A stretch of DNA of 64,000 nt from Echinarachnius parma (Eukaryota > Echinodermata > Echinoidea > Clypeasteroida > Echinarachniidae): contig JBAMJV010009764.1 of the NCBI GenBank assembly GCA_037951105.1, positions 78,644-142,643 of the forward strand, read 5' to 3'. Below the pieces are notes generated by a model. It saw only the letters and a list, made by a program, of their open reading frames with translations. It had not been told where the DNA came from and did not search any database. Position 1 is the first letter of the stretch. The number at the start of each line of letters is the position of its first letter. Positions 40,224 through 64,000 of this stretch are shown piece after piece. Made by a program: the position numbers and the translations under genes.

Positions 40224-40225
40224 TG

Positions 40226-40635: not shown

Positions 40636-41519
40636 GATCTTATTATAATTTATTTATCCAATTAAATTTATAATTTCTCATAATCTCACCCCTCGTTCGT
40701 TGGCTTTTAAACAAGAGTCAAGACAAAGTTCTTTCAGTACCGTTTCACGTCTCGTTTAAAATTAAATACTACAAAACAAAGTTCATACATTTATTCTTGC
40801 ATGTGTGTATATCTGTCCTAGCCAAGATCATTGGAATTACATTATCCGAGCCCCATTCCGAGGCCGACATGTCTGAAATAGACATAGGATGTCGAAGTAA
40901 ATTTCTCACCAAAAATATCCGACGGGTACGTACCTAGGCCTAGGTGACTGTCGCCAGTAGCTGCGCCAGCAGCAGTGGCGTGGTCATCCGCACCACTGCC
41001 TTGTCGCTGCCGCTATTGCTAATCCACTTGGTACTGTCGGGCCGAGGCAAAAACTTTCCTAAAATTAACTGTGGTTCTTAATTCAATTTAATCTCGAAAC
41101 ATGTATTATAGTTACATAACATGTAACTAAATCTACATGTCGCAATCATATACTTATATGTTCAACAGCTTCTTCAGTGTGTCAGTTCCGTAAACATGGT
41201 AAATGAAACTCCCAAATTACTGTGTTGATTTCGTATTTCCACCTCTTCAAAATCATAATCGTGTACCGTTATTTGCGTATAGATCGGCACTGTATAACGG
41301 CGCCGTACGTACGCGGTAATGTGCGTATGTACCTTTTCTTTCCCCCCTCTCGGGATCCTACGGTAAATAAAAGGGGTAACACAGAGGTAATATACAGGTG
41401 TTTTCCGTAATGGTGGAATTGAAGCTAGCAATAGAGGGCGTACATAATAATGAACTGTGAGCAAGATTTGAGTTATATCCTTCCCGTTTTTCAACTGACA
41501 AGCAAAGGGGAAAATCAAA

Positions 41520-41816
41520 TTCTTCGCCTCTTTGATGAGACCAAAAATAACACGATTTTGCCCAAATATATAATTATAAAAACGGTTTTGCTCAAAAACG
41601 ACGTTATTTTGTCCTAAAATGACATGAATTTGACCAAATGAAAAATATAAGTTTGCCCAAATATGACCCGAATATAATATTATTTCCCCCGAATATGACA
41701 TGGATTTACCCAAACAATGGTTCTGTCCAAACATGATTAGGTTTTGCCCGAATTTGACATAGCCCAAGTATGCCCAAATATGAGATTATTTTGCCCGAAT
41801 ATGACATGAATTTTCC
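41520..41816. repeat. Degenerate minisatellite, TTGCCCGAATATGACATG-type units
   Basis: Irregular units of roughly 22-50 bp; the array resumes at 44996-45075 after the insertion at 41825-44987. Read on the minus strand it gives a 197-codon frame with repeated FGQN, which is a repeat by-product. Confidence 0.75.
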
Positions 41817-41824
41817 CATATATG

Positions 41825-44800
41825 CAGTGGTGTATAGACAGGTTCTTACACCTGGGGAGGGGGGGGGGGGGATGATTTGCCGTTCACCGGACCAATACCA
41901 ATTTGTTCGCGCCCGAGACCGCCTGCCAAATTTGTTCAAGACCAAGGAAATTGCTTGAAAGTCCTCTCAGTGGGGGGGGGGGGGGGGGGGGCAAAACCTA
42001 TGGGGGCTCACGATTTGTGTGTGTAGGAGCTCATGCCCCACCACACTCACAGTGCTGCCAACTTTGAGCCAGATGTGAGAGCGAGACATTGCAAGGAGCG
42101 AAGCGACCAAGCCCGAGGGAGCGAAGTGACTGAGCGGGGGAGGGGGTGGAAGGGGTGGGAGGGGGTGTCCCCCATCCCACGGTAGGGAGCTTTTGCATTT
42201 TTGGACTTGATATTGTGCAATCTGGTGCTTACCTAGATAGGAATTATTCGGGCTTAACATTGACTTTAACTGGGAAAGCGTATTATGATTTGATCGACCA
42301 GAAATTTTAAATATATTTTCACGAAGAAAACAAATAATTGACACACTAATAAATATGCACCCCAACACACACACAAATATTGTATTTATATTTAGCGTCA
42401 TACACAGACCCAACATCATCATATGCCACATAAACATATATGTGATTACAAATTAAGTATACATTTATCATATTAGTGATTGCGATCATGATAGTGATAT
42501 TACTTGACGGAAAAGATAAATACATCTATAAAACTGTTCGCCACTATTGTTAAGTATGATTCTTTTATCGATACAATCATGAATTATAATACATTTTATG
42601 CTTTGTATAGTAAGGGTGCATGAAAATGATTAGTATTGTAGATTAAAGTGTTTGCCTATATTTTATTAGGCATTTAGCGGTTGCAGTACCAATTTGATGA
42701 AAACGTAGTACAGTGTTCCCACTTATACTCATATACCAGCCCTTTATTAGATAAGTAATAATATTCAAATTAGATATGAAGATATTTGCATATACATTGT
42801 AAGACTTTATATACATAAGTGTGGTATGGATTTAATGAAAATATACCAGTTAGAAAAACAACATGGGTTTTTTTTATAATTCCTTAATCATATTATTGTA
42901 GAATAAGTTGTATACCTTTATTTTCTTGGGCCTGATACAGTAGTATATATTAACTAAGTATACTGATCTTGTTTAAACAACAATACCTAGACATTCGTTA
43001 AAGAATATTATTCAGTTTTTTGTAGATAGCTTAATCAAATTATTTTTAGATGAAGTGTATGCCTACATTTTCTATAAATATATATTTGCTATAATTCCTA
43101 TATTTTCAAGTTGTTCCTGGTAATGTTTCTAATTTTGTTGTCACAAACAAAAAATGGTTTTGGTATTTCTTCTCGGGTTTGAGATGATATATTCTAGATG
43201 CTAATACAATTTGAATTTAAAATATATAAATAGCGTTGTTTTCATAGTGGACATTTTATGAGTTCCATGTGGATTAAATGCATGAGTAGTTTAATCATGT
43301 ACTTAGCCAAAGATGTGATAATCATGAGATACTCATACCCATGTTTAGAATGTTAGTTTCATTTCTAATAACAATAATACATCATAGAGTTGTATTATCA
43401 TATTGAATCGCATAGCGGACTCCATATTCTTGATATGTAGCTGAATAATCTGCAATACCATTACACTGATTTAGTATTAACGAAAGTTTTATTCAAAGGT
43501 ATTGTAACGTTTGATTGGAGCGCAACTAAAGATATATTCTCATCATAGAAATGTGTTATTTGCCTTTTTAGAGTTGGATGCTCTTGACAAAGAATACTTG
43601 TGTAGTAAAGAAATACTCCCCAATTTTGTCACGGTACATGGTTATCATGAATTGAATTGAATTGAATTGGTACTAACCTCAATTGAAAACTGACACAATA
43701 ATTGTATTCTTACGGAGTAATAAAAGCCTGAATTATGTATTCAAATCGAAAATAATAATCTGAACTCTCGACTGAAATCGTTTAGTGTCATACACAGTTC
43801 AAACACATTATGATATGCCACATTACGTATGATCCAACAACATTATACAGATATTGACTGTCTAGAGGGGCAATATAACATTTGAGATCCTCGAGGGAAG
43901 TTATATTTTTGTCGAGGGACATTATATTTTTCCGAAGCGCGTAGCGCTGAGGAAGAACATAGTATTCCGAGACAAAAATATAACTGCCCAAGGGAAATGA
44001 AATGTTATATGGTTCCCGAAGGAAAAGAGTCCATATCTGTTATATTATGATGACCTGTATAGATACAAATCAAGATAAATAGAAATTTGGTGTTGAAATA
44101 AAATTATAGACAAGGGAAAATCATGAAATTAAATCGAAATCCTTCCAGTAAAACAGACGTGTCGAAATGCTGCGCAAAATGCTCCTTTATTCGACCCTTC
44201 CTTTCAAATTTACTTTCGGATCGCGCAATCTCCGTAGAAAGCTTGACAACGCTGCGCGTGCCAGGATGCTAAAACGCGCAAAATTGTTCATTGTCATACC
44301 TATTGTTACGTCATACCTCTGGATATAACGGCGTTATATTCAGAGGTATGACGTAATTTACGTCATGAATGAAATATAACGCTTCTCATCCTTGTAGTGA
44401 TGGTCACGTGACAGCATTTTGACCAATCGCACATCAGTATCTATATAGGTCATATAATATAGCCTATTGCCAATAATGAGTCCCGAGGGGCGAAGCTACC
44501 GAGGGCTGGGGCAGAGCCAAATAGGGAGGGATTGGGAGGGGGTATCCCCCTCCCACGGAGAAGATTTTGCATATTATGTACTTGAAATTATGCAATTTGG
44601 TGCATGTCACACAAGCAGCCAGAGCAATGCCAGCCTACACTGGAACTACGTGGCCCGGTATACAGAAAAAAAAAACTCACCCCAGACCATACGCAAGTTA
44701 CACAACAAACTGAGATAATCTGTTTGGGCGCGAAGCGCGCAGCGAAAATTGAAAGTGGATGATTGTATACATTACTTTTTGAACGTTAGATTTAACAAGA

Positions 44801-44987
44801 ATTAGCTCATACAACTAATGTTTTCTTTCCCACTCGTATACAGATACACACAAACAAAATATATCCTTCCCTAAAATCGGGGGGGGGGGGGATGATTGTA
44901 CATGTCATCCCCCACCTTGTGATGTGGGGGGGGGGGGGGGGTGCATACCCCTCACCCCCCCCCCCCCCCCTGTTGTCTACGCCCCTG
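41825..44987. mobile_element. hAT-like composite element, family A, 3163 bp
   Basis: Ends CAGTGGTGTATAGACAGG and TGTCTACGCCCCTG, with G/C runs just inside both ends, flanked by a perfect 8-bp duplication CATATATG (41817-41824, 44988-44995). No transposase is visible. The interior from about 41967 contains reversed family-B-like sequence (GGGGGCTCACGATTTGTG), so it is probably a small element enlarged by insertions. It also carries two hairpin regions (43868-44020; 44305-44356). Confidence 0.85.
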
Positions 44988-45075
44988 CATATATGACATG
45001 GTTAAGCCCGATTATAACACGTTTTGCCCGAAAATGAGGTGTTTTTTGCCCGAATATGGTAGTTTTCAAAACTCC

Positions 45076-47172
45076 AGGGGGAGGGGGGCCTGGAGCGCAA
45101 ATATATATACCTCAAAATAAACTAAGAAAGTATACAATCCAATTTAATATGGTAGTATATTTTGACGTCTACTTTATTGTATCACCATTTTAATGTTAGT
45201 TACAAAATAAAATACTTGCGGGGTGTGAAAATTGAAAAGAAAAAAAAGAGGTGTATTTCTACACCCCAATGCTTTTTAATCCACTAACTACCCCTTCTAT
45301 CGAATGGAACGTGCTATTGATGGGAGTGCACTTGACTATCTTCAGTATGTGCCATTCTATGTTAGTACCGTGTGGCGATAGTATAACATCGTGTACTTCT
45401 CTGGTATATAATTGAGGTGAGTCATTCAAATTGTCCTGTAACATTCGATACACGTCTCATTGATATATCGATGTATTGTGTTTCCTTATTATATATTAAG
45501 ATGCGATAACTAGTCTGAATAACGGAGCTATTGAATGTGGTATACGGTTTTCCTTGAAGATGACTTTATAGTTATCGCATTACAAAGTTAAATTCGATGG
45601 GAGCCCTGATATCGATGGCGGTCACAGCGGAAAGACCGAACCCAAACCGTTAAAATCGGGGTCGTTCGGGGTGATGTCAATTATTTTAGCGTTTGACGAA
45701 TGTTTGTTTAGCCTTGCCCTTGCGTCGGTCTTTATATACAACACGTCCGAATTCAGTGTACATTCGGCATTGGGACACACAACCAGATCGAACCCATAGA
45801 GATGCCCCATTTCATACAACTTTTGCATTATTATGTCAAATTTATGAATCAAATTTATTTGTGTAAGTGCGACGTTTCACCGATGTCTATCGGCTTCTTC
45901 TGGCAACCCGCCCACTTACACACGTAAGTTTAGTCCATAATTTGATTTTTACATGTTGATACCTACTTCGACTGGATAAGTGAGAATATACATCAACTTA
46001 TTCTTTGCATTAGCATGATTAGTGTTGTAAGTGTCCAATGATTGTAAATACCATGGTAACAGCTGCAACGCTCCATGCTGATTGGTTGTGGACCTATAAC
46101 ATGTAAATGTTTTAGTTAAAATAATTGGACACTTACACAATTGTAAAAGTTTTATGAAATGGGGCACAGATCGAACTCAAACCGACACCAGATCGATTCC
46201 AGAATCCAAACTGACACAAAACGGAACCCAAATCGATGAATTCGGCGTGGCGTCCCTTTGCTGTCGGTTTCAGTTCGGTCTATCGTCAGTATTTCTTTGG
46301 GCTCGATGCGGTTTGGATTCGAACTCGCAGATTTGACGAAGTGGATTATTTCGAGCGCATCTGAAATAATATAGGATTTTTCGGTCAATTTCGTAAGTTG
46401 GCCACACGTAATTAATTTTGTGTGCATTCAATGTCATACCTTGAACATACCTTGAAGGCCACACCTCACCATCTTCATCGTGAGAGTAGATAGTTAAGCG
46501 TGGCAGGGTTTAGGGGGCACATTTGAGCCCATTTTAAAAACCCAAGTTGGATAGCTGTTTCTTAAAACTTAGGAGTGAGGGGGTTGGACTACACTTTGTG
46601 GGAGTTTGTTCCATATGTTGACAACCCTTTGACTGTAGAAGTTTTTCCTGACATCCAGCCTGCTTCTGAACTTTGTGAGCTGCATTTTGTATATACTACA
46701 AATTCGTTTTTTTAGCATTTTAATTCATATAACGATCTTTCAAAAACATTTCGTTTACATTCGATTTAAAACGTGCTTCGTAAAGATTAATTGTCATTTT
46801 AGAAAATGTGCGATTACCTAATACCGCCTTCCGTGAATTCCGTTGGCTAAATTAAATGCTAATAGTGTGTTATTTTTTATTTTAATGCTATAAGTGCTAA
46901 ATCACTTGACCGAAAAGCTAAATTAAAATAGAATGAAGAAAATTTAATTTTGAACAACATTTTTATGCCCTCAGCTTAATTTCGTGAATTTGAATGAACC
47001 GCTTATCAATACGAATTAAAAATTTGGCCGGGAAACCTTTATTTAACGCCACTGATAATCTATAGTCGATAAAGAATTTACAATTTTACCAACTTTGATA
47101 CCCCTTCTACACTTCTCCGATGTATTAAAACCTATTATTATAGATTGCATAATTGTATCGACATCGTACAGC
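45076..47172. other. Intergenic sequence upstream of the deiodinase-like gene
   Basis: Should hold the promoter; I see no TATA box or CpG-rich start region. An inverted pair with TGCCCCATTTCAT/ATGAAATGGGGCA lies at about 45795-46165. Nothing coding is supported. Confidence 0.4.
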
Positions 47173-47403
47173 ATGGATCCCGACGAGTGTGGCAAAGACG
47201 GTGGCAGTCCGGAAGTCCATCCGATGCCGTTGACCGCTACTCCTGGTCAAGACCCTCAAAGGTACCCAAAGTTCTTCGGTGAACCCTCGAAAGCCGTCGA
47301 AGTCCTCCGGGAATACGAGCGACAGCTGTTTTCTGACGAGACCCAGAAAACGTTCGATGAGAGACTGGATTTTTCGGACCCCGACGTTCTGGTGAAAGTT
47401 AAG
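47173..47403 (+). CDS. DIO: Deiodinase-like exon 1
   Basis: 77 codons, phase 0 out, donor AAG|GTATGC. It encodes a charged, hydrophilic N-terminus (YPKFFGEPSKAVEVLREYE and TFDERLDFSDPDVLVKVK) with no signal peptide or membrane helix. The 5' untranslated sequence is AT-rich and I could not place a promoter. Confidence 0.75.
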
Positions 47404-50400
47404 GTATGCTAGACCGAAATAATCAGTCATTCTCTTCCGTTTGCTGTTTACTCAGGATCACTACTACCACAGAGTAACTATATTTTTACAAAAAGAAATT
47501 CAACATTGAAAGAATATTTGTGCCCAATTAACGTAAATCATTCAAAAATATATATCAATTATTATTTTTCAACATGCGCCAATAAAAAAATTTAAAAATA
47601 AAAATTTTGGAAGGAGCTAATTTAATAATATTTGGAAGATCATTCCATAAAGGTATGCATGCTTTGCTTTTAAAGATTGTCATTCGTGGTGATGCTAAAC
47701 CGTGGGTCGCCATTTTAAACTATACTGTATCGGTAAGCGTGTGCCAACCTGGTCTCTCATCTAAAATGACTCTATAGGTCATTGTACCACACCGTCTAAA
47801 AAGACCCATATAGTCATTTTAGGTGCACCTGAATATGGTGCCATCTACGTTTGGAAACTGAATGGATCGTTAATGCGTCGCAGAGCCTACTTTTGATTTT
47901 GTCTGCGACTCGAGAGAGACTATCACTCGCGCATAAAATTTCCGACTTGTATAATATACCGACTTATAGCCATTAATCTGACCTATAGCCACTAAATCTG
48001 ACCTATAGCCACAAAATCTGACCTATACTATCTATAGCCACTAATCTGACCTATAGCCACCAAATTAGGGTTAGGGTTATGGTTTAGGTTAGGGTTACAT
48101 ACTGTATCCCCAAAACCCACTGCAAATCAAGCCACTCGCTGTGGCGCAATTGGATGCGTGCTAGCCTAATAATCTAAAGACGCCTAGTTCGATGCTCGCT
48201 CTTACCGTCGCGTCTCTTGCGTAAACTCGTACTCGATATTCGATATTATACAGTTTCCAAACGTAGATGGCAGCATATTCAGGTGCACCTAAAATTACTA
48301 TATGGGTGTTTTTAGAAGGTGTGGTACAATGACCTATAGAGTCATTTTAGACGAGAGAACAGGTTGGCGTGTGCGCACCACATATCGCTGAACCATTGTT
48401 TATCACGCAACGTGCGCAGGGCGTTCGCAAGATGGCACCGCGCATGTGATTTACGAATCCGAACCACATTTAATTATTGTATAGACTAATTCCTTGATAC
48501 CATTCCAAAGTCATGACATTTCTTTTACAGTAGTCGTGTCTTTAATTGCATGTCTCGTATTAGACCGAACATCATATATTCCGAGGGTTGGGTCCACTGA
48601 GAATGTGTCTTGTTTCATTATCATCTTACACTATCGTGTTCCCTTCGTACTAGGGGTTCGTATGACGTCATACTATTAAAGGACCCTCTCCTGGACGAGG
48701 TGGATTTTTCTGTCTAGTCTCGTATGTATTATCCACACTTTGATGAGGGGAAGTGGGTATTTTATGAAATTTCCCATAGTTTGGTGATGCCTGCAAAAGA
48801 GATGTACGAACTTTTCTAAGCTTAAAAGGATCTAGTAACATTGCCAAAATCCTCAAAACTTTAGCGGTTGTCACATACCCCATTGATTCGTATTACTATG
48901 TAAGCAGGGAACAGCTTTCTGTTTTCCAAATTTCTCTTCAGTTATAAAGTTTGATTGACTTATTGAAGCGTTCAAATTCATAATGATCCAGTTGCATTTT
49001 CGCTCATTACTTGGTCATAATTATGACATTCATTTACCATGGAATGTTGACACATCATTCAGTGGACATTTTATCAGGTCAATGCACAAATACACACTTT
49101 ATCAACCAATTGCCAGTTTTTGCACATGTCAGCAAAGTTACTAGATCCTTTTAAATCTGTTTTTAGTTCTTATTGGACTACATTAAAACGCATCATAATA
49201 TCATAAACAGTAAAACATTATTCCGTTGGTTAACATCATTATACTTATAGAAAATCTTGCGTGAAGTATTCGTGAGGACATTGGAGGTGATGGGATTGAG
49301 TCACGTGATCGATCAGGCGACCTCGCTCGGCATGTTCGGTGAATCCAAGTTCGTGTACATTCCAGCAATAATGCACATGGCCTATGGAGACTGTCCCGAG
49401 GTGAGGTTCATGACGATATAATCAGCACATTCATGAAAACAATATTGATATTCACACTTTCTCTACACTCACACTCCCACTCCCTTGTCCCATGTTATAA
49501 GTCATCTTCTTTGTGTGTATTCCCTCCAATCTCAGCCACGTTTGATTGGCCACTCACAACCTCTTTAGTCTCTGCCCCTTTCGCCTTTCTCAGCTGTATG
49601 CATGTGTTCGTATTATTATGTTCTGTATCATTTGGCCTATTAAGAAGATTCTGCTAGGATCGAAAATGTAGGCCCTATAACAATATTGTGACAGTTTCCA
49701 ACATTTATATTTTTATGACACAGAATACGTAAATCCCCTTATTGTTTCGTATTATCAGTAAATCAACATGAAGTTTATATAATATCCCGGTCACATATCA
49801 ACGGATTGCGCAAACGGATGTCAAACGGAGAGCTAAATTGTCTATGTTTTGCATAGGCGCCGGAAGTGGGGGGGGGGGGGGGGGGCCGCCCCCCCCCAAT
49901 CCAAAAAGTGGGGGGGGGGGGGGGGGGGGGGGGGCAAAACGCGTTTTTGCCCCCCCCCCAAACCCCCCCCCCCCCCCCCCCCCCCAGATTATCTCAATTT
50001 GTTGTGTAACTTGCGTATGGTCTTGGCCATGGGGTGAGTACTTTTTCTGTACCGGGCCACGTATAGTTCCCGTGTAGGCTGGCATTGCTCTACCTGCTTG
50101 TGTGACGTGCACCAAATGCACCATTTTAAAAGTATATAAATGCAAAATCTTCCCCGTGGGAGGGGGATACCCCCTCCCAAACCCTCCCCCTCTGGCTCTG
50201 CCCCAGCGGCCCTTGGTCGCTTCGCTCCCTCGGGCATGTCGGGACTCATTCTTGGCTGTAGGCTATGTTGTTGGATCATACATAATGTGGCATATGGTAT
50301 ATGTTGGAACTGTGTATGACACTAAATACAATATTTTGTGTGCGTTGGGGTGCATATTTATTAGTGTGTCAATTATTTGTTTTCTTCGTGAAAAATATAT

Positions 50401-53400
50401 GACATTTCTGGTCGATCAAATCATAACACGCTTTCCCAGATACAGTTAATCATAAGCCCGAATTTCCTATCTAGGTATGCACCAGATTGCACAATTTCAA
50501 GTCCAAAAATGCAAAAGCTCCCTACCGTGGGAGGGGGGACACCCCCCCCCCCCCCCGCTCAGTCACTTCGCTCCCTCGCAATGTCTCAATCTCACCTCAT
50601 CTCTGGCTCAAAGTTGGCAACCCTGTGAGTGTGCATGGTTGGGCATGAGCCCCATCACAACAAAAATCGTGAACCTATTTAGGTCTTTGCCCCCCCCCCC
50701 CCCCCCCCCAATCCAAAACTGCTTCCGGAGCGCCTGGTCCCCCACCCCCTCCTCCTCCCCACGATGTGTACGCATATTAAGATGATATTATACATCATTT
50801 GTGGGGAGCCTTGCTCTGTGCCAGACAGTATAACATTACACCCTAAACAAAAATACAGTTTTATCATGTTTATTGTGGTGCGTAACATTCTTTTTAGCAG
50901 CTAATCATGATTTGTCTTACCAAAATGATAATCGAATCGCCGAATATATACAGACAAGGCAATTAATAAAACATTATGAAAAATTAACAGCTGCCGGTGG
51001 AACGAAATACCTGTTCCTTTCTAGCTTTTGCAATCCTCATAGAATTAATGCAGGCCCAACCAGGCTCCCATAGGCAATGGGTTAATATCCCCGACAATAA
51101 CAGAATAATATGTTATTGTCGGGAATAATATCCCATTGCCTATCGGAGCCTGGTGGGTCAATATTATTGTCTGAAGGTGGGTAAATAATGTTGTGTTTGG
51201 CTGCCAAGAAAACTTGTTTTGCGCTCATGCGCTGCATTTTATATGTATCAATATAAACATGGAATAAAATACGGTTTCCAAATTTCTCAATTATTTGTTT
51301 TCTTCGTGAAAAATATATTTAACATTTCTGGTCGATCAAATCATAACACGCTTTCCCAGATACAGTTAATCTTAAGCCCGAATTTCCTATTTAGGTATGC
51401 ACCAGATTGCACAATTTCAAGTCCAAAAATGCAAAAGTCACTTCGCTCCCTCGCAATGTCTCACTCTCACCTCAGCTCTGGCTCAAAGTTGGCAACCCTG
51501 TGAGTGTGCATGGTTGGGCATGAGCCCCTACACAAAAAAATCGTGAGCCCCTTTAGGTCTTTGCCCCCCCAATCCAAAACTGCTTCCGGCGCGCCTGATG
51601 TTTTGTACATGAAGCAATGGAAACGACTTTCATCACCGGATAATTTAATTTCGCAAATTGTCTATTCGTTGGGCATACGTTTCCGATATCCATTGATATC
51701 TGACCGGGCCATTATACAATGAAATAAGGAGACTCAAACACATAGACGGCGAGTTGGTTACGAATTAATAAAGGAATAGCCTAAATATTTCGATTTCGAA
51801 GATTTCGATCGAGTTTTTGAACAAACTTAATGTTATTCTGTTTTTGTTATGCAACATGCACATAATTATGTTAACAAGTATTTTATAACCTATGGATATA
51901 GCCGGGATGAGTGAGTTATGGGGTAGTTCAAATTCATGTACAGCTAATTCAGAAACACATTTGTTCAATTTGTTAGTCACCCTCTGGACGACTGACGAAT
52001 AGTGTGGCCAACTAAGCTAAACTAAGCTATTGTCTTCACATGCTCCACCTGCAATAGAGAGAGAGACCATTGATTCATTGGACCAAATTCTCATCAGTGA
52101 CTCAACTTGAGCCTGGCCTAAAAAGACAAAGACTACCGGTATTAAACAAGTTAATCCACTTTGCACCAGCATACATATTTTCTCGTTGCTATACGATCCC
52201 CGGAGATATTATAATGGTTTTCTTTCATTATCCAGTCAATCCCTTGAGTTCTGATTAATGGCATCTGGACAATAGGCCCTTTGAAATTCAGTCATAGTAT
52301 AGTCGGTCATCAGCCGAATTGCGTCCTGGCTCATCCTGGACACTGTATTGCTGATTGATGTAAGCAGAACACAAGGGATTGGCTGGATAATAAAAGGAAA
52401 CCATTAGAATATCTCCGGAGACCATAGCAACAAAACAATAGGTCTGCTGGTGCAAAGGGTCACTGGTAGTCTTTGTCTTTTTAGGCCGAGCTCAAGTTGA
52501 GCCACTGATGATAATTCGGGCCATTGCCTTTAAAGGGTGACTAAATTACAAATGCATGTTGACTTTTGTTGATCTGTTATAATGAATACATCACATATGT
52601 ACATTTTTGTCATATTTTTAATATTATTTTTTCTCTTATTTTTATTCTACCTGCTAAGATCCACCCCTAAAAAATCCTCCAGCATTGACTTTTATGACAT
52701 CATAATACCATTCAACCATCAGTCAGGTAGATAAACATGAACAAAAGATATGTTCTCACCCACTGAGTACCTTATTGCATTAGCATTGGATGTTTTCATT
52801 GAAACCCTGCTTTTCATGGTGAGTGGGCTTTGTATGAAACATGCAATGCTATTGTGAACAGGTGGTCACTTGATAGGAAGTGACATACCAATGTATTTTG
52901 TTCATCTAGCTGACTGGTGGTTGGATGGTATTATGATGTCACAAAAGTCAATTGCTTCTGGAGGTTTTTGTTTAGGGGTGAAGCTTAGCAGGTAGAATAA
53001 AAGTAATAGAAAAAATATGACAAAAATGTACATAAAATAGTCAACAGATATGTGATGTATTCATATTACAGATCAACAAAAGTCAACATGCGTTTGTAAT
53101 TTAGTCACCCTTTAATGTTAAACATGATGTAACTAAAAAGAGGGGGGTAATTATGGCTTTCTCCAACTATAGTGTATAGGTTATTTTAACCTGTCCCTCG
53201 ACATCAACACAAAATAACAACAGTGCAAACTAGACCAGTTAACATGAAAACACAAACAGAGCTGTGTATAGTAACCACCGAAGAAAAACAAGAAAAGTGG
53301 TCGCCGTAGACATGCGACCTCTACAAACTAGTGCACACTATTACAGACAGCTATACAGGGTTCTCCAAAAAAAACGGAACGGGGCACTTCCCAAAATATA

Positions 53401-56400
53401 GTAACACAATGATTATGTCCATTGGATAGAGTGTCCTTTCCAATGAAAAATCATACCAAGAACAGTAATTTTGGACAAGTATTTTTTTTAAATTATTTTT
53501 TTAATTGTAGGACGTCTTAAGTGAGACCATGTCAGGTTCCCATTTCTGTGATTTTTTACCAAGTCACTGCCTGATAAATCGCACTACCTGTCCGTCATAG
53601 CATCGTACAACTATGCTCATTCTCTCGGCACACAGCTGAATGCACACTAACAATGGCGCGTTGTTCGATGCTATGACGGGCAGTAAGAGCGATTTATCAA
53701 GCACTGACTTGATACAAATTGACAAAAAAGGGAACCTGACATGGTGTCACTCACAGTTCTAGGTATCGTTTTTCATTTGAAAAGACACCCTATCCGATGG
53801 ACATAATCATTTTGATACAATATTTTGGGAAGTGCCCCGTTCCGGTTTTTTGGGGACCACCCTGTATAGGTTTGACTGTAGTATACCAATTCATTCTGCT
53901 TCAGGTGATGAGAGAATTTCCGCCCATGTCTCCTGAAACGACAAACCTTGGCCCAAACATTCCGAGCATTGTCGGAGCCGGAGATGCCGTACCGAGGCTC
54001 GAACTCGTGACCCTGTCTGGGACGGCTGTCCAGCTGGCAGACCTACACGTCAACAAGGATCGCCCCATGATGATCATGGCGTCCTCTGCCTCCTGACCCC
54101 CTCTTAGGGTAACAATAATGATAATAACAATAATTATGATATAGCTTTAGTTGTGGTTGTTTTTAATTTTATTGGCGTTCTTCATTCATTTTGAATATTT
54201 ACGTGATATTGTTGTTTACTGTTTATTGGCGGTTCATTCAATTTGAATATTTACGCCAGGGGTGGTTGTAGTCTTTCGTCAAGACTCTCACGCTATATGC
54301 ACAATTACGCGAGCGGAGCGAGCATCGTGAGCGAAGCGAACACATCGAGCGCGAAGCGAGCCAGTTCGTCCCGCTCGTTGACCCCGTGCTCTCTCACAGC
54401 TAGCTATAGCTCGCGATCGCATAGAGAATCTCCAAGCCATATAGAGCCTTGACTAAAGGCTAGGGTGGTTGGGAAAATCGGCCATGGGGAAAACTCGGCC
54501 ACGTACAAACTTCGAAGCGAACAGGCTGCTACCGATTAGGAGACGAAACACCACTACCTTTCCACCCGATCACCTGTCGATAATGCTTGCGTTACGATGG
54601 CAAAGCATGAGCGATTACGATGCGTGCTACTCGCTATCGTTCGAAAGTAGGTGGCCGGGTTCACCAACATGGCCGCGTTTATCCACCACTGTCATGATCA
54701 TAAACAAATTAAAGCGATCCATTAACTTCATAAGAACTGTCAAAAGTTATATTTGAGACTATACATGCATTGATTTACTAGCGTATTATATATACATTAT
54801 AAGCCCCTGACGATTCATGTAGGACCTTGAGGCTCCATAAGACATTTAATTTCATGTACTTGGTTTACTAGCGTTAAACACCTGCCAATTCAAGCACTTC
54901 GGCTCCATAAGACATTTCGTGTCCCGGCAGTGACACTTCGTATTCAAAAGTAAGACACGTGATCGTTTTGGAGGTAACAAATGACCTCCTATATTTGCGG
55001 ACTTTCGTGTACATTTTCAGCAAATAATACCCCCTTTTACCATACATATATTACCCTTTTTTTCGGAGTTCGAGGAAGCCTACACATAAACCAAAATGCC
55101 CCTTTTAACGACTTAAAGTACACAAATAAAATATGATTTGTTGCTCTTCACGAAAAAGATACATTTCGCGAACATTTTAATACATTTTGTACCCCTTTTT
55201 TCTATTTTCCGCGGAAATATTTTTGAAATCTAAACCTTATTTTTTTATTTCCGCGATTTGTTTTGTTTGCGAATACATGTGCCACGAAAATGGACACCTT
55301 TTTTGCGCGAAATTGTGAACAATCATGCGTATACACACGGCCAATTTGAAGTGACACCACCGGGTTTTGTGTACCATTCGATTACTAGGCAGCGTGGCCT
55401 GACAAGTCAAGCACGTGACATTAAAGCCCAAGTCCAGTTTCGGGAAAGTAGCCGAATACATCTATATTGATCAATTTTGTTGAATATATATTGAAATAGG
55501 GCTTGTGTGGTAAAATCAGAACCTAAGCATCGTTGAATACAGAAATATCGGAAGAAATCCAATATCCGCCTGTGAAATTCATAAATCCACCGCCCGTTCA
55601 GACCTGTCCGCGCCGCTAGCGCTGGGAGATATCGACAAGCTAGGGACAAGCCAGTATAGCGAACACCTCGTGTAATACCATGTGGTCATAATACACGTAG
55701 TGTACGAGCAATTCCGCGTTGGCGATATCTATCCGGACCGGATCAATTTATAATTTTGCAAATACACCAATTAGTAGGCGGTTTCTTGGCCAAATTTCTA
55801 TAATCCCATGTTAGTAATACTATGTTCTGTCACAAGGTTGGTAATAAGAGCGTATATTTAATTTTTTAGGGGGTGGGGCGTTTCCCACTACTGTCCTTTA
55901 CCTTTAAATTCCATGTACCATACTGTTTATACCCTAGGCCTGTGTCGTAGGTGGCACGCTGGCATCCCTCGCCCGCGACTACCGAGGCCAGGTCGACTTC
56001 CTAGCCGTGTACCTCACCGAGGCGCATTCCGCCAACGGGTACAAGCTCGGATGGAACGTCAGTCCCTTGAAGCAGCATTCGTCGCTACAGGATCGCATTG
56101 CTGCTGCCAGGTGAGTTGGTTGGCATTTACGCAAACTGACGAAGGGTTGATAAAATGTGTGTTTGTGCATAGACGTACTAGAGATGGACAATGAACGAAT
56201 ATTGTCTCTTTGACCCAATCATGGTCACCGCTGCATTCATTGCCAGGAGTTATTTCCAATGCTATTGTCTCATATTAGGTGCAAGGACAATTATTTTCAT
56301 TTCACGGGACAATGAGCTCCCTAAGGCAAGCCTGAGAAATTCAACCTTATCGACGAGTGTTTACGCTGATGCATGTCTTGTCGAGTCATGAATGCTATAG

Positions 56401-57421
56401 ATTACTGGTCTCGGGATCAGCATATCATAAATGTTACATTTTTTGGTAAAAAGGAATATCAATTGTGACTTCGCAATCTCCCGCACACTTACAGCATTCG
56501 ATTCACCAGGAAGAAGCGTAGTCGATCTTTATATACATGTCAATATTTTTTTTCTGGAGAAATGTGTGGAAACCTTGAAAATTAAGTTTTTGACGGGTAG
56601 TGAATATTTAGAAATGTGATAATATTTCTTGTATTAAACATGTTTTGCAACGGATATTTATACAAAATGATAATTAAAGCATTTTCTTTCATAACAAGCC
56701 TATTCAAAGACACGGCTTGTAATAGTTCTTCGGAAAATGTAAGTTTTATCAACAAAAATGTTAAACTTGACTGTCATCACTCTTCACGGCGGTGACGATG
56801 ATACGATCAATGGGATTAAGCGAGCATTGGTGCCATGGTGATATATTTGTATTCAACAGGTGAATGAATATGTTAAAAGTCGATGATTGTCCATGTTAGT
56901 ATGTCTATGGTTTGTGTAAGATATGTCCACTGAGTATATGCCGGAGTGATATAGGTATATGATTGAAGTCTCAAATATCACTTGTACCTTCCGAGCATGG
57001 TGGAGTTATGGTATGTTTGTAATGTTATTGTGCATGTTTTTGTTACTAAAGTTCAGTCTGACCGAAACTAATCTATCCCTTTAACCTTTTTTTGTGTACA
57101 CCATAACATTATACATGGCTCTTTGTTTACATGTCACCATGTCATAGGGATCTTCTCCGAATCGATGCCGAGTCCCAATCATGCATGACGAGTGACGTCA
57201 CCGACTTGTCCAAGTTCCGCCTGGTCGTGGATACCATGGACAATATGTTTTCCAGGACGTTCGCGGCCTACCCCGATCGAGTCTTCTTCGTGCGTGGCGA
57301 AAAAATTGTGCACATTGGGAATATGGTGATTATGCAGATGGAGAACCCACGGCGGCTCATGACCCACGAGGCACGTGATTGGCTAGTGAAGAATTTAGGC
57401 GGGAAGCCTGTGAGCCTTTAA
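47173..57421 (+). CDS. DIO: Iodothyronine deiodinase-family selenoprotein, 5 exons (whole gene)
   Basis: Five exons join in phase to 344 codons including the stop (343 residues), with TGA at 54094-54096 read as selenocysteine 191. The C-terminal half is clearly deiodinase: SASUPPL at the active site, VDFLAVYLTEAHSANGY with the conserved His 34 residues after the Sec (32 in human DIO1), SSLQDRIAAA, and VVDTMDNMFSRTFAAYPDR followed by VFFVRGEKIVHIG. Deiodinases are thioredoxin-fold enzymes that remove iodine from thyroid hormones; whether this one uses iodothyronines is not known. The N-terminal ~150 residues do not look like any deiodinase I know and contain no clear membrane helix, whereas vertebrate enzymes are membrane-anchored. 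I chose the ATG at 47173 (A at -3, G at +4) over an in-frame ATG at 47095 with poor context. Confidence 0.88.
47955..48105. repeat. CTATAGCCACTAAATCTGAC minisatellite with TTAGGG tail
   Basis: Five to six units of about 20 bp run into TTAGGGTTAGGGTTATGG, an interstitial telomere-like stretch. The same combination in reverse occurs at about 40275-40360. Confidence 0.8.
48138..48203 (+). pseudogene. tRNA-Arg(TCT)-like relic
   Basis: CTGTGGCGCAATTGGAT resembles the A-box half of tRNA-Arg(TCT), and TAGTTCGATGC resembles a B box at the right distance. The anticodon arm is broken and the acceptor arm does not pair. Probably a pseudogene or a tRNA-derived SINE head. Confidence 0.35.
48822..49154 (+). 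mobile_element. TTAA-flanked element, GGATCTAGTAAC family
   Basis: Left TTAAAAGGATCTAGTAACA, right AAGTTACTAGATCCTTTTAA; related to 21508-22050. Ends 96 bp before the acceptor of deiodinase-like exon 2. Confidence 0.8.
49251..49400 (+). CDS. DIO: Deiodinase-like exon 2
   Basis: 50 codons, phase 0 on both sides. ILREVFVRTLEVMGLSHVID and FVYIPAIMHMAYGDCPE look like a folded helical domain that I do not recognise. Acceptor ACTTATAG|AAA; donor GAG|GTGAGG. Confidence 0.75.
49783..51712. mobile_element. GCCCGGTCA-type element split by a family B element
   Basis: Left part at 49783-49851 (CCCGGTCACATATCAACGG) and right part at 51598-51712 (TATCTGACCGGGCC) together correspond to the 219-bp element at 7338-7556, minus a small internal stretch. 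The break is filled by the element at 49852-51597. Confidence 0.8.
49852..51597. mobile_element. hAT-like element, family B, 1746 bp
   Basis: Ends CATAGGCGCCGGAAG and CTTCCGGCGCGCCTG, flanked by a perfect 8-bp duplication ATGTTTTG (49844-49851, 51598-51605). The inside has long G and C runs and a block (about 50340-50640) repeated at about 51285-51560. No transposase. The proline- and glycine-rich frames are homopolymer by-products. Confidence 0.85.
52082..52524. mobile_element. Foldback element ATTCTCATCAGTGACTC, copy 1
   Basis: Arms with CTCAACTTGAGCC, AAAGACTACCGGT and GGAGATATTATAATGG pair across the element. A second copy lies at 58721-59198. Intron 2 of the deiodinase-like gene. Confidence 0.8.
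52530..53115. mobile_element. TTAA-flanked element with AGGGTGACTAAATTAC ends
   Basis: 586 bp with long complementary arms (TTGACTTTTGTTGATCTGT and complement), TTAA at both edges. Confidence 0.85.
53356..53864. mobile_element. TA-flanked inverted-repeat element, CAGGGT family
   Basis: Ends CAGGGTTCTCCA and GGACCACCCTG, TA both sides, GGAACGGGGCACTTCCCAAA near each end. Its right edge lies 40 bp before exon 3 of the deiodinase-like gene. Confidence 0.85.
53905..54108 (+). CDS. DIO: Deiodinase-like exon 3, selenocysteine exon
   Basis: 68 codons counting TGA as Sec, phase 0 on both sides. AVPRLELVTLSGTAVQLADL matches the strand before the active site in deiodinases (VVRLSGQ-type), followed by RPMMIMASSAS, TGA, then CCCCCTCTTAGG (PPLR). 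Family active sites read SCTUPP or SATUPP. Acceptor GCTTCAG|GTG; donor AGG|GTAACA. Read conventionally the frame would end at the TGA and the conserved exons 4 and 5 would have no use, which argues for recoding. Confidence 0.85.
54109..55420. other. Deiodinase-like intron 3, unique part
   Basis: A GCGAGCGGAGCGAGC-type short repeat at about 54303-54365; otherwise ordinary intron. Confidence 0.4.
55421..55907 (+). mobile_element. TTAA-flanked element, TTAAAGCCCAA family, copy 2
   Basis: 487 bp, ends TTAAAGCCCAAGTCCAG and TTTACCTTTAA, parallel to 13970-14445. Ends 30 bp before the acceptor of exon 4. Confidence 0.85.
55938..56110 (+). CDS. DIO: Deiodinase-like exon 4, EAH motif exon
   Basis: 173 bp, phase 0 in and phase 2 out. 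TLASLARDYRGQVDFLAVYL is followed by TEAHSANGYKLGWN and SSLQDRIAAA, the signature of the family's catalytic core. Spacing from Sec to His is two residues longer than in human DIO1, which places a small insertion just after the active site. Acceptor ACCCTAG|GCC; donor CAG|GTGAGT. Confidence 0.88.
56111..56989. other. Deiodinase-like intron 4, unique part
   Basis: No element or exon signal supported. Confidence 0.4.
56990..57084 (-). mobile_element. TTAA-type element end, reverse
   Basis: GGAGTTATGGTATGTTTG to CTAATCTATCCCTTTAA matches, in reverse, the left end of the 11616-12180 element. It stops 63 bp before exon 5. Confidence 0.65.
57148..57421 (+). CDS. DIO: Deiodinase-like exon 5, C-terminal exon
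   Basis: 274 bp completing the protein and ending in TAA at 57419-57421. FRLVVDTMDNMFSRTFAAYP and DRVFFVRGEKIVHIG are the family's C-terminal strand-helix-strand. EARDWLVKNL closes the fold. Acceptor GTCATAG|GGA, with a pyrimidine-poor tract in front. Confidence 0.88.
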
Positions 57422-58475
57422 CTTTGAACATGTCACTTTACCAAAGTAGTGATGTAAGATTCTTTTGTTGTAATGGTTCTAAATTTAAACAACTTGTTCT
57501 TTGATACTGGCTTTTGGTAATGGGTTGGAGCTGGACGGTCGTTAATATGGCTTGCCTGTCATGGCAACGAATATATGTAACACCACATCTCTGTAATATA
57601 TGAGGACGGAGCTCATTTAGCATTCCCAGACCCAAGGGAGGGGAAGGGGGGGGGGGGGGGGGGGCATTCCACATGATAATCATTCCGATCACTTACTTTT
57701 GAGATTCATAATATTGGGTAAGCATTTAAATCGAGCCAGTCTCTGCTAATCAGTATTGTTGAAATTTCGTACGATAACCACAATACGGGTGAGGATATGA
57801 TATGATATGCATGTACAAAGCATTTAAAAAACTTTAAATGGTATTAAACATCTTATATGGTTACATGCTACTAAATTCATCTTCCTTATATATACTCCTT
57901 GAAGTAATATATGAAACTAAATTTTCCAGATCCTAACGATTTTGATGGCCAAAATACTTGCTTTCGTAATGATCGTTTTGACGGTCAACATCAATTCAAT
58001 TTCGATATCGATATGGGTGCGGTTATGTTACATCGATCTTTCTGTTAAAAATGACAGGTTTTGTTGTTGTTGTTGTTGATTATAAGAGTTCGATTTGGCT
58101 ATGTTTTCCCATGGAAGCAGGAAATTAGAAATAAGGTAAATTTTGCAAAGGATATAACTTATACATTACATTAGCAAAACATATATGGTTGGTTGGTGAT
58201 CATTCATACTTGCGAGAAGGAATGTTTAATTCTGCAATCTTTGAATTATTACATTTTTGGCTGGAGTAACAAACACAAAACAAAAACAAAAGTAATACTT
58301 ACCATCGAGAAACAAGTTATTTTTTACATAGATATGTAATTGTTCGTTATAATGTTATGCTATATATATTTCGGTTCCTGTATCGACGTCCATGATATAA
58401 TTATTGGTTCACTGATTTCACCTTTTTTACGTGTTTGGATATGAAACAATAAAAACCAAACCAAGTACCCCCTTG
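57422..58475 (+). promoter_or_regulatory. Probable 3' UTR of the deiodinase-like gene
   Basis: Non-coding sequence after the stop. A canonical AATAAA lies at 58448-58453 with a GT-rich stretch about 60 bp later, a plausible polyadenylation site. A selenoprotein mRNA needs a SECIS hairpin here. I checked every ATGA and several GTGA starts between 57422 and 58560 and found none with a convincing paired helix, apical AA and opposing GA. It contains a poly-G run at about 57647-57664. Confidence 0.4.
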
Positions 58476-58720
58476 ACTAAACTGAAGCTGTACGGTAAAA
58501 ACTTGATAAAACTGGTGATTGGGTGATATATCAAAATATGATCTGAGCGGTAGCTCTCCCCCAAATTCCCATTTCTGAAAATGTTCACATCATTATCAGT
58601 TCGTAATAATATAAGCGCATTGAGAGAAATAACCTTTTACCCATACTGTTACCGTATAACACCTGTGAAATGCGAGTTAATTACAACAATAACAAGATAC
58701 CTGACACATTTAAGATAGTT

Positions 58721-59198
58721 AGCCCGAATTCTCATCAGTGGCTCAACTTGAGCCTGGCCTAAAAAATACAAAGACTACCGGTAACCAGTTAACCCACTTT
58801 GCACCAGCAGACCTATTGTCTCGTTGCTATGTTCTCCGGAGATATTATAATGGTTTCTTTCATAATCCAGTCAATCCATAGGAATCGGGACAATGGGCCA
58901 TTTGTAATTCAGTCATAGTATAGTTGGTCATTAGCCAAATTGCGTCCTGGATCATCCTGGACACTGTATTGCTGGTGACCTGTTATACTATGACGGAATT
59001 TCAAAGGGCCCATTGTCATGATGCATATAAGCAGAACTCAAGGGATTGACTGAATAATGAAAGGAAACATTAGAATATCTCCGGGGACCATAGCAACTAG
59101 ACAATAGGTCTGCTGGTGCAAAGTGTTACAAGTAGTCTTTTCTTTTTGGCCAGGCTCAACATGCTCAAGTTGAGCCACGGATGAGAATTCGGGCCAAT
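58721..59198. mobile_element. Foldback element ATTCTCATCAGTGGCTC, copy 2
   Basis: Ends GCCCGAATTCTCATC and GATGAGAATTCGGGC, internal arms as in copy 1. No clear target duplication. Confidence 0.8.
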
Positions 59199-59223
59199 GT
59201 CTTAGGTATTTTGTTTGTAATGT

Positions 59224-60218
59224 CTTAAGCAACTGTACGTTTATGGCTGCGTTAGATTTGTAGCAATGCTTTACCAATAATTCGAGTTTATCAGTCTGCA
59301 TTCATTTTATAAGGCAAATCCAATGCTCATGTATTAGTGTACGATTGTGTCTGGCAAATTTGTGTATGATGATGTATTGTTCTTGTCAATAGAAGGAATT
59401 TATTGGCAAAAATGTATGGGAAGTATTTTGGAGTAGTGTGTATTAAGAATGTTAAATCATTATACAGGGTGGCCCAAAAAAAAACGGAACGGGGCACTTC
59501 CCAAAATATAATATCACAATGTTTATGTTCATCGGATAGGGTGTCCTTTCCAATGAAAAACGATACCAAGAACAGTAATTTTGGTCAGGTCGTTTTTGTT
59601 TAAGGACGCAGTGAGTGAGACCATGTCAGGTGCCGATTTATGTCGATTTCGACCTAGTCAATGCCAGTTTAACCGCACTCCTTGCCCATAATACCATTCA
59701 GCGACCAGGCCCATTCTCTCGGCACACGGCTGAGTGCACACTAACAATAGTGCGCGATGCTCAACGATATGAACGGCGGTCGGCGGTTCGTGCAATTCAT
59801 CAAGCGCTGGCTCAATACAAATTGACAAAAAAGAGAACCTGACATGGTGTCACTCACAGGGCCCTAAAACAAAAACTACACGACCAAATTGACTGTTCTT
59901 GGTATCGTTGTTCATTTGAAAAGACACTCTATCCGATGGACATAATACATGTGTTACTTTATTTTGGGAAGTGCCCCGTTCCGTTATTTTTGGGCCACCC
60001 TGTATTTCTACCGATGTTATGTAATGGCGGTGACAAATTTGATGACACTTCAAAAGAAAAACAAACCGAGATTCGGAAGCTTATGAAGTTGAATGGATAT
60101 TTGTCGTTACCAAGTTTACATGATGTGTGTGTAGATGTTTCCGTTAATCAAATACAACATGTACCGGTATAAGGTAAATAAAACAATATATATATATCAA
60201 ACGATGGTGCATACACAC
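59224..60218. repeat. Tandem duplication unit 1 (with insertion)
   Basis: A unit of about 455 bp beginning CTTAAGCAACTGTACG, interrupted by the TA element at 59465-60002. Unit 2 follows directly. Confidence 0.9.
59465..60002. mobile_element. TA-flanked inverted-repeat element with known empty site
   Basis: 538 bp, ends CAGGGTGGCCCAAAA and TTTGGGCCACCCTG, TA at 59463-59464 and 60003-60004. Unit 2 of the surrounding tandem duplication reads TCATTATATTTCTACC with a single TA at the same point, proving both boundaries and the TA duplication. Confidence 0.95.
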
Positions 60219-60677
60219 CTTAAGCAACTGTACGTTTATGGCTGCGTTAGATTTGTAGCAATGCTTTACCAATAATTCGAGTTTATCAGTCTGCATTCAT
60301 TTTATAAAGCAAATCCAATGCTCATGTATTAGTTTACGATTGTGTCTGGCAAATTTGTGTATCATGATGTACTGTTCTTGTCAATAGAAGGAATTTATTG
60401 GCAAAAATGTATGGAAGTATTTTAGAGTAGTGTGTATTAAGAATGTTAAATCATTATATTTCTACCGATGTTATGTAATGGCGGTGACAAATTTGATGAC
60501 ACTTCAAAAGAAAAACAAACCGAGATTCGGAAGCTTATGAAGTTGAATGGATATTTGTCGTTACCAATTTTACATGATGTGTGTTGTAGATGTTTCCGTT
60601 AATCCAAATACAACATGTACCGGTATAAGGTAAATAAAAACAATATATATATCAAACTTTGGTGCATACACACCTTT
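60219..60677. repeat. Tandem duplication unit 2 (uninterrupted)
   Basis: Same sequence as unit 1 without the insertion; the join with unit 1 is at CACACCTTAAGCAAC. Confidence 0.9.
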
Positions 60678-60718
60678 ATTCCGTATTTGTTACAATTATG
60701 AACACAACACAGAATCCA

Positions 60719-60840
60719 CCCCCCCCCAAAAAAAATAATAATAATAAATAAATAAATAAAATAAAAAAATAAAAAATAAATAAAATAAAAAATAAAAATA
60801 AAAATAAATAAATAAAAATAATAATAATAATAATAATTAC
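60719..60840. repeat. A-rich TAA/AAATA microsatellite
   Basis: Mixed AATA, AAATA and TAA units after a short C run. It gives a Tyr/Phe-rich frame on the other strand that is not a gene. Confidence 0.9.
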
Positions 60841-61002
60841 TTAAACATGACATTATTATAACAAATGTTTTTTACTTATGGTTTGTGGAACAATGCTTTT
60901 TGAAATTCCAGCCATTGTGGTTTTAAAAGGTCACATGATGTTCAATGCATTCATTGCAAGGGACAGTACAAAACGACATTCAACATTTATCATTGCTCGA
61001 TG

Positions 61003-62376
61003 CAGTGGCGTAGACCATAGGCGCCGGAAGAGAGGGGGGGGGGGGGGGGGCAAGCCCTCCCCCCACCCAATTAAAAAGGGGAACTTGTTTTTCCCCTCAA
61101 AAAGCCCCCCAACAAAAAAGAAAAGAAACAAAAGAAGAAGAGTTGGAAGACAAAATAAAATGGATGAGCTAAGACTTGTTAATTATAATGTTCAAAAACT
61201 AATTTATACATCGCTGCGTGCTTCGCGCGCGAACAGATTGTCTTAGTTTGCATCAAAGACTATAGTTGGTTTGCATTCAACGGTTGTATGGTCTGGGGTG
61301 AGTGTGGCATGGGCATGAGCCCCTACCATGGGCGTCGATCACGGGGGGATGGCCTGTATTATTATTCCCCCCCCCCCCCAATATTTAATATATAATAACA
61401 TTAAAATAAAAGAGCATTGCCCCCCTCTCATTCATAATGTGAAAGTTGATACTATAGTCTTCTTTAAACCACATTTTGATAGGGCTAAACTGCCCAAATC
61501 CAAAATCTTCCGGGGGCTGCGCCCCCTGGAACCCCCATTAAGGGTTTATTTGACCCAGTCCCGGCCCTGTACTCATTGAATAGTTTTATTCAGGACTTCT
61601 CTCTATACAAAGTAAAATTGAGCTAACTATATAACTAACTATACAATAGTTAACTGTATTTCATATTTACATATAGAAAACATCTTTATTTCTGGATATT
61701 ACCAAATCCCAAAGCTTCCGGGGGCTCCGCCACCTTGACCCCCCAATAAGCTTCCCAATGTGGGTATCCCTTGACTGATTCTATTCAGGGTTTCCAACAG
61801 GATGCTTGCAATCTATGTATCTATCAGGCTATAAAGTTCATCCATACCTCGGACAAAGCCCCCCCCCCCCCCCCTCCTCATAACACGATTGCAGTGTGCA
61901 ATTAATAATCTTCCGATTTCTAAACAGCTAAATCCAAAAGCCTTTGGGGCCTCCCTATCCCCCCCCCCCCCCCCTCCCCCTCAGTCATAAAAAACCCGAG
62001 GCACGCTGCTGGGTTGTCGCTTCGCTTCCTCGCCAAAGATAGTCAAAATGACGTATCACCCCCCCCCCCCCCATGGCGAGAAGAAATCGATGCCTATGGC
62101 CCCTACACCAACACAAATCGTGAGCTAGGTCTTTGCCCCCCCCCCTCCCCCCCCCCCCACCCCCCGAATCCAAAACTGCTTCCGGCGCGCCCTGGCGTAG
62201 ACAGGTTCTTACACCCGGGGGGGGGGGGTGATTTACCGGTCACGAATCTCGTATACAGACACACACACACACACACACACACCTTATGAGGTGTGGTGGG
62301 GGGGGGGGGGGGGGGGGTGGGGGGGGTTGCATACCTCTCACTCCCCCCCCCCCCCCCCCCGATGTCTACGCCCCTG
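61003..62376. mobile_element. hAT-like family A element hosting a family B element
   Basis: Outer ends CAGTGGCGTAGAC and ATGTCTACGCCCCTG, flanked by a perfect 8-bp duplication GCTCGATG (60995-61002, 62377-62384). With the inner insertion taken out it is a miniature element of under 200 bp with G and C runs and an AC microsatellite. Confidence 0.9.
61016..62194. mobile_element. hAT-like family B element nested in family A
   Basis: Ends CATAGGCGCCGGAAG and CTTCCGGCGCGCCCTG, flanked by a perfect 8-bp duplication GCGTAGAC (61008-61015, 62195-62202) taken from the family A terminus. Same family as 49852-51597. Confidence 0.9.
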
Positions 62377-62440
62377 GCTCGATGAACAGAATAAAACACA
62401 CATTCAACCTTCAAATAAACTCGATATTACCTTCACTATA

Positions 62441-64000
62441 CAGGGTGGCCCCCAAAAGACGGAACGGCGGTACTTGTCCTAATAAAGACATAGTTCACGG
62501 GATAGGGCATCTTTAACAAAGAAAGGGATACCAAGTAATGGTCAGGGCATCTAACTTCGCGCGGCATCTAACTTGGCGCAGTTAGTTTCGCGCAGTTAAC
62601 TTGCCAAAAAACAGGCCGAAATAAGTTAATTTAAATTGAGTAATCTTAAAACCAAAACATGTTTATTATACTACAGAATATTCTGAATAAACTGGTATTA
62701 GAATTATTATACACAATAGGATATTTCTTGTCGAAATGATGTGTTAAAAGTTTACTGCGCGAAGTTCGATACCCCCATCATACAGTAATTTTGATCGAGT
62801 AGTTTTTTTTATTTAGGATGTCCTAAGTGAGACCATGTCAGGTTCCCATTTTTTGTAAATTTTCACCAAGTCAGTGTCTGATAAATCGCACTTGCTGCTC
62901 GTCGATTGTGTACCAGAAAGTATATAAAACTTATGAAGGGCTTAATTGTTATCAAAATACACATTTACTGAAGATTCTACATCTAAGACTTGGAATAGTT
63001 TACCTTCGGAGTTAATTAATTTGAGTCTGATCCATATAGGCGTACGCAGGGGAAGGGATTTGGGGGGGGGGGGGGGGGGGGGGCGGGTGGAGGAGGGGCT
63101 CAACCGCCCCCCCCCTTTTGACCAAATAATGACTGTTTTGGGGGTTTGGAAATTGAAACCCCTACTTCACAATTTGTAGCTGGTCTCGAGACCACATTTA
63201 AGCCCTCGAAAATTGTAAATATACTTGGTCTCGGGTTCAAAAAATGTATACGGCCACTCCCCCCCCCCCCCCCCCCCGCTTTACATAAATTTGTCAGACG
63301 ACATCCCCCCCCCCCCCCTGAAACAATCCTGGGTACGCACTGGTCTGACAACCATCATTCAGGTTTGTGTCATTTCCGAAGGTGAACTATTCCAAGGCTT
63401 CGATGGTTACTCTTGAGCAAATTGAGTACACAAGATATGACGTCATACAAATCTTCTTTTTTTAATTTTCAAATTTGAACTTCATTTACCGAAATAGCAT
63501 ACAAAATAATGTCCAAATACCCAAAATCAATTAAATATGTTAAGAATTGGCTGAGATATGCCTAATCGCATGATTTGTTTTGTCAATGGGAAATCAGTGC
63601 TTCCAACGCACCCTTCCGGCAAAACCGGGGGGGGGGGGGGGCTTTGGACGAATGGTCGCGTTCCAGTCAACGCGACGCGACGCGACGCCCCAACGCACCC
63701 TTTCGGCAAAACCGGGGGGGGGGGGGGGGGGCTTTGGACGAATGGTCGCGTTCTCCAGTCAACGCGACGCTACCCACCCCTTTCGGCATAAGCCACTCGT
63801 CATAGTATCGAAATACGCGCGCCAGTGTTAGTGTGCATTTAGCTATGTGCCGGGAGAATGGGCATAGTTGTTCGGTGCTATGACAGGCATGAAGTGCTAT
63901 TTATCAGGCACTGACTTGGTAAAAAATTGACAAAAATGGGAACCTGACATGGTGTCACTCTGAGCGCCCTAAAACAAAAACTACACGACAAAAATGAAAA
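62441..64000. mobile_element. TA-flanked CAGGGTGGCC element, interrupted, runs off the window
   Basis: Left end CAGGGTGGCCCCC after TA. The body matches the other copies but is broken twice: at about 62535-62782 (GCGCGAAGTT/AACTTCGCGC-type ends) and at about 62903-63795. The right arm resumes near 63800 (GTCATAGTATCGAAATAC, GGGAACCTGACATGGTGTCA) and continues past the window end. Confidence 0.7.
63598..63795. repeat. Direct repeat of about 100 bp with G runs
   Basis: GGCAAAACC, a G run, GCTTTGGACGAATGGTCGCG and CAGTCAACGCGACGC occur twice; part of the second insertion in the interrupted TA element. Confidence 0.8.

Follow-up and report, generated by a model that had tools for sequence, protein, structure and literature searches.

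An in-frame TGA interrupts a deiodinase-like reading frame in a 64-kb stretch of DNA from Echinarachnius parma, referred to here as the window and numbered from its first letter. The locus thus raises the question of whether this codon ends the protein or is read as selenocysteine (Sec). Judging from the sequence, we consider it highly probable that the locus is an iodothyronine-deiodinase-family selenoenzyme gene, in which the UGA would be read as the catalytic Sec by means of one or both of two hairpins located 3' of the stop codon. The features of the locus are collected in Table 1.

Table 1. Features of the deiodinase locus and its 3' flank (positions in the window).
Feature	Position	Strand	Basis
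Probable upstream coding exon, MDPDECGKDGG...DVLVKVK, phase 0 to next exon	47144..47403	+	Codon usage, splice ends
Active-site exon (exon 3 of the original prediction)	53905..54108	+	Joined translation, Pfam, alignment
In-frame TGA, putative Sec codon, context SSAS-U-PPL	54094..54096	+	Aligned with catalytic column
Exon with DFLAVYLTEAH and conserved QH..LQDR block (exon 4 of the original prediction)	55938..56110	+	Translation, Pfam, alignment
Last coding exon with VVDTMDN, TAA at 57419-57421 (exon 5 of the original prediction)	57148..57421	+	Translation, Pfam
AATAAA, 5' of both hairpins; its use would remove them	58448..58453	+	Sequence
Unit 1 of tandem duplication, with hairpin 1 and poly(A) signal; split by transposon-like insert	59224..60222	+	Sequence alignment
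MITE-like insert, 538 nt, ends CAGGGTGG/CCACCCTG, TA target duplication, inside unit 1	59465..60002	.	Inverted arms, end sequences
SECIS-like hairpin 1, form II type	60029..60111	+	Eye, fold, pattern scan, resampling; Rfam silent
AATAAA, between hairpins 1 and 2	60177..60182	+	Sequence
Duplication unit 2: hairpin 2 and poly(A) signal	60219..60677	+	Sequence alignment
SECIS-like hairpin 2, an exact 83-nt copy of hairpin 1	60483..60565	+	Sequence repeat, pattern scan; Rfam silent
AATAAA, 3' of hairpin 2	60633..60638	+	Sequence

Coding exons, family membership and the position of the TGA

Three plus-strand exons join in phase to give 216 residues, and the TGA is the sole internal stop. The active-site exon lies between TTCAG and GTAACA (GT at 54109), the next exon between CCCTAG and GTGAGT, and the last one follows CATAG. 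As originally predicted, the active-site exon reads in frame through the TGA into PPL, the joined translation giving ...IMASSAS-TGA-PPLR, and the two exons that follow carry the EAH and VVDTM motifs in phase (YLTEAH and VVDTMDN) with no further in-frame stop. The frame also remains open, the TGA apart, when the probable upstream exon is included. At the stop-codon frequency of the window, the chance that the 300 codons of the four exons (TGA excluded) would all stay open is about 2e-8, a figure that is post hoc because the exons were picked for being open. The intron behind the active-site exon (54109-55937) contains a dispersed repeat, in that about 490 nt of it are 85% identical to positions 13970-14445.

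The predicted homology to deiodinases was borne out by comparison with Pfam. The spliced protein scored 87.9 bits (E 8.5e-25) against the T4_deiodinase family (PF00837), whose cut-off is 27. This match covers profile positions 74-235 of 237 and starts at residue 24 of 216, which is 5' of the TGA; the other matches of the protein, to Redoxin (E 0.065) and AhpC-TSA (E 0.18), were insignificant. The 148 residues encoded by the two exons 3' of the active-site exon reached 67.9 bits against PF00837 by themselves (E 1.1e-18). The 63 residues 5' of the TGA gave no Pfam match on their own when matches up to E 10 were asked for, with filters that drop most matches above approximately 0.1. A comparison with solved structures gave four matches at E <= 1: a type III deiodinase, 4tr3, ranked first (E 1.2e-13), a type II deiodinase, 9h48, came second (E 2.4e-10), and the remaining two were cytochrome-type chains.

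We then aligned the spliced protein, with the TGA entered as C, with the chain fragments of 4tr3 and 9h48. Identity in this three-sequence alignment was 34% to type III and 32% to type II. The TGA fell on the C of the catalytic column in both chains, which presumably carry Cys as a substitute for Sec in the crystallized proteins, and C64, P65 and P66 were invariant; in the DNA, TGA-CCC-CCT corresponds to the putative Sec followed by two prolines. E96-A97-H98, H115 and D120-R121 were invariant as well. The EAH histidine and the second histidine, that of the QH block, have a catalytic role in deiodinases. The gene thus shares with the vertebrate enzymes (type II, 9h48; type III, 4tr3 and 4tr4; PF00837) the catalytic core with the Sec column followed by PP, as well as the EAH, QH..DR and D-x-M-x-N blocks. 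It differs from them in reading SSAS-U where they have GSAT-U or GSCT-U, and in carrying additional residues ahead of VVDTMDN and behind the HIG block.

Vertebrate deiodinases also have an N-terminal membrane helix, whereas we found none that was convincing here, either in 36000-47083, where there was no candidate first exon encoding such a helix, or from 26000 on under a relaxed threshold, where none of 5 weak candidates out of 128 was accepted. PF00837 profile positions 1-73 had no match. Pfam searches of the plus strand detected no N-terminal exon in one frame of 39001-53904, read with stops as X; as for the other two frames (44002/44003-57421), one was empty and the other contained only the last exon, at 19.1 bits and thus below the cut-off. 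Non-vertebrate chordate deiodinases apparently lack a membrane segment, according to one report (PMC8699336).

The most 5' coding sequence assigned to the gene came from a codon-usage scan trained on the three deiodinase exons together with two long minus-strand frames. Segment 47158-47385 ranked fourth on the plus strand of 36000-58000, directly behind the three deiodinase exons. It lies within an open stretch that has an acceptor (TTATAG), a donor (AAG/GTATGC) and a first in-frame ATG at 47173-47175, and that reads ...DVLVKVK-VMREFPPMSPETTN... when joined to position 53905. This stretch has no Pfam match by itself, and we consider it a probable upstream coding exon of the deiodinase gene. 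Since its frame is open up to the acceptor, another upstream exon is possible. Farther upstream, on the minus strand at 24575-33373, the window carries a multi-exon ankyrin-repeat gene (of the three minus frames, one matched Ank_2 at E 3.7e-10) with two long serine-rich coding stretches, 24581-26161 and 32066-32899.

A tblastn search of the 64-kb window revealed no second copy of the deiodinase gene at E <= 1; it returned the four exons and one further match at E 2.7. Two pattern scans of prokaryote contigs gave 16 and 49 matches and two scans of viral contigs gave 0 and 35, without a single relative among them.

Two SECIS-like hairpins in a duplicated 3' flank

The original prediction named no SECIS element and proposed 57422-60900 as the range to be searched for one. 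We found one candidate, in two copies, both of which fall inside that range. Hairpin 1 lies 2.6 kb 3' of the stop codon, on the same strand as the gene. In the predicted fold, a quartet of UGAC opposite UGAA (U-A, G-A, A-G, C-U) stands above lower helix I; helix II comprises 9 bp with one A-A mismatch, a stretch of A residues is left unpaired on the 5' side, and a CCGA/UCGG minihelix completes the structure. This core agrees with the UGAN/KGAW core, with its A-G/G-A pairing, described for a mussel deiodinase SECIS (PMC8481496) and with AUGA_AA, given as the usual invertebrate SECIS pattern (PMC3473315), and form II SECIS elements with a minihelix have been described (PMC2874816). The segment 60025-60120 folds at -20.6 kcal/mol (z -1.99, 5 of 200 shuffles being equally stable), which taken by itself is a modest value for hairpin 1. 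The fold was retained by both copies in contexts of 201 to 482 nt and, except for the outermost pairs, by copy 1 in a context of 999 nt.

A pattern scanner was then used, with rules of our own that were written once hairpin 1 had been seen; its background rates are somewhat favorable for that reason. On both strands of the window it returned four hits, the best two of which (-14.7) were the two hairpin copies; the other two lay on the minus strand and scored -13.0 and -7.3. In 57422-61000 there was no hit besides the two copies. Simulated order-2 sequence (28 Mb) contained 492 hits, 62 of them at -14.7 or lower, corresponding to a chance expectation of about 0.008 hits as strong per 3.6-kb strand. 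Among 1,000 first-order resampled 3' flanks, 78 had some hit and 7 had one as strong. As the sole positive control, the scanner found one human SECIS, that of GPX1. Rfam, in contrast, was silent, and this finding weighs most heavily against the SECIS identity of the hairpins: there was no SECIS match in the whole window at the gathering score, none among the 70 matches in 53000-64000 at E <= 10 (mostly microRNA families on G/C runs), and none among the 4 weak, unrelated matches in 59990-60150 at that same threshold.

The two hairpins belong to the two units of a tandem duplication, and each unit also carries a poly(A) signal. Unit 2 differs from unit 1 by 9 substitutions and 10 gap columns over 462 alignment columns; the alignment leaves out 59462-60005, and 4 of the 10 gap columns stem from that cut. 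We considered selection as the cause of the 83-nt identity of the hairpins, which was not significant (P = 0.17) given that the units differ by just 9 substitutions over the 462 columns, and a recent duplication thus suffices. The MITE-like insert of unit 1 probably postdates the duplication, since unit 2 has an empty site. Poly(A) signals lie before, between and after the hairpins, and more AATAAA occur in an A-rich stretch from 60743 onward; mRNAs with zero, one or two SECIS elements could therefore arise.

Repeats are also found elsewhere around the gene. The MITE-like inverted repeat has two copies, 53353-53868 and 59465-60002, that are 75-90% alike in matching blocks, the first of which stops some 35 nt short of the active-site exon's acceptor. 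A second inverted-repeat element occurs at 52076-52530 and 58719-59203 (85-91% alike in matching blocks), the latter copy lying 3' of the stop codon and 5' of both hairpins. A third, at 52530-53115, 5' of the active-site exon, has arms that are 85-96% complementary, and 50391-50665 and 51311-51540 are direct repeats of one element that agree at 95-96% over two blocks.

Alternative readings of the TGA

A gene of this kind could be a selenoprotein gene and still use another element as its real SECIS, both hairpins then being due to chance. The silence of Rfam would fit such a case, as would the fact that the scanner was written after the fact; against it stand the low chance expectation given above and the lack of any other scanner hit in the 3' flank. 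We thus regard chance hairpins as unlikely. The TGA might also be an ordinary nonsense mutation, or a remnant, in a decaying deiodinase copy, of either the Cys or the Sec type. Indeed, the original prediction's statement that every known deiodinase has selenocysteine does not hold, inasmuch as only Cys-form deiodinases are reported in Nematostella (PMC3473315) and a non-selenoprotein deiodinase is mentioned for amphioxus (PMC8699336). Given that Cys forms exist, a Cys codon could have turned into TGA, and transposon-like inserts are found about 35 nt 5' of the active-site exon and in the 3' flank. However, the four exons contain no other stop and no frameshift, their splice ends are consensus-like, the only stop is a TGA and lies at the single codon where the family uses Sec, and SECIS-like hairpins follow downstream. 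All this makes a pseudogene very unlikely.

Even less can be said for the TGA as a true stop, with a short product ending in SSAS and the later exons either unused or present only in an alternative form, which we consider extremely improbable. Use of the AATAAA at 58448 could indeed yield mRNAs without a SECIS, and Rfam does not recognize the hairpins. Yet the later exons remain open and contribute the bulk of the family match (67.9 bits by themselves versus 87.9 joined), which suggests selection on their translation, and a product that stops short of the catalytic residue would presumably be inactive. The selenoprotein reading of the original prediction was thus supported by the family assignment, the column in which the TGA falls, the open later exons and the two SECIS-like hairpins downstream, the recoding itself being deduced from these features.

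According to the preferred reading, that of a selenoenzyme gene, the UGA would be decoded as Sec, directed by one or both of the SECIS-like hairpins of the 3' UTR, and this Sec would serve as the nucleophile of a reductive deiodinase with a thioredoxin fold. The substrate may be an iodothyronine or a relative such as a thyroacetic acid. Transcription, splicing, Sec insertion, enzyme activity and substrate are all points that we infer for this gene from its sequence.

Precedents and significance

Sec-type deiodinases are known from other invertebrates. Mytilus coruscus is described as having two Sec deiodinases with SECIS elements, McDx and McDy (PMC8481496), which by that description resemble the present gene in their in-frame TGA at the active center and their UGAN/KGAW SECIS core. 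Similarly, a survey counts 11 deiodinase selenoprotein genes in Trichoplax, 4 in Lottia, 12 in Capitella and 9 in amphioxus, and reports deiodinase clusters in Branchiostoma, Trichoplax and Lottia (PMC3473315); in contrast to these clusters, our window holds one copy by tblastn at E <= 1. The same survey describes an amphioxus deiodinase, Bf.DI_b, that has one UGA and two strong SECIS elements downstream, credited to duplication (PMC3473315). It is similar to the present gene in combining one Sec codon with two SECIS-type elements and differs from it in belonging to a three-gene cluster, of which tblastn revealed no counterpart in the window. Invertebrate Sec deiodinases and paired SECIS elements are thus both precedented, and the duplicated RNA signal is the one unusual detail. 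For sea urchin, several deiodinase genes are listed in a paper whose text lacks the word selenocysteine (PMC9856734), and our literature search yielded no paper linking SECIS, selenocysteine and deiodinase in an echinoderm.

What may be new at this locus is an identical SECIS pair in which each copy has a poly(A) signal of its own and just one of the units, unit 1, carries a transposon-like insert. Human SELENOP mRNAs from which poly(A) choice has removed one of two SECIS elements have been described (PMC5133445). It is conceivable, and on balance doubtful, that the duplicated SECIS and poly(A) signal might provide a natural dosage switch, operated through poly(A) choice, to control Sec insertion at one UGA.

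Most of the catalytic domain would be missed by a gene caller that ends the protein at the TGA, and automatic annotation may therefore well be wrong here, as the original prediction had warned. The gene adds a Sec-type deiodinase, together with its proposed SECIS, to the set available for dating thyroid-hormone-type chemistry in animals. Moreover, the duplicated SECIS would provide a natural pair with which to ask whether a second copy alters Sec insertion at a single UGA.
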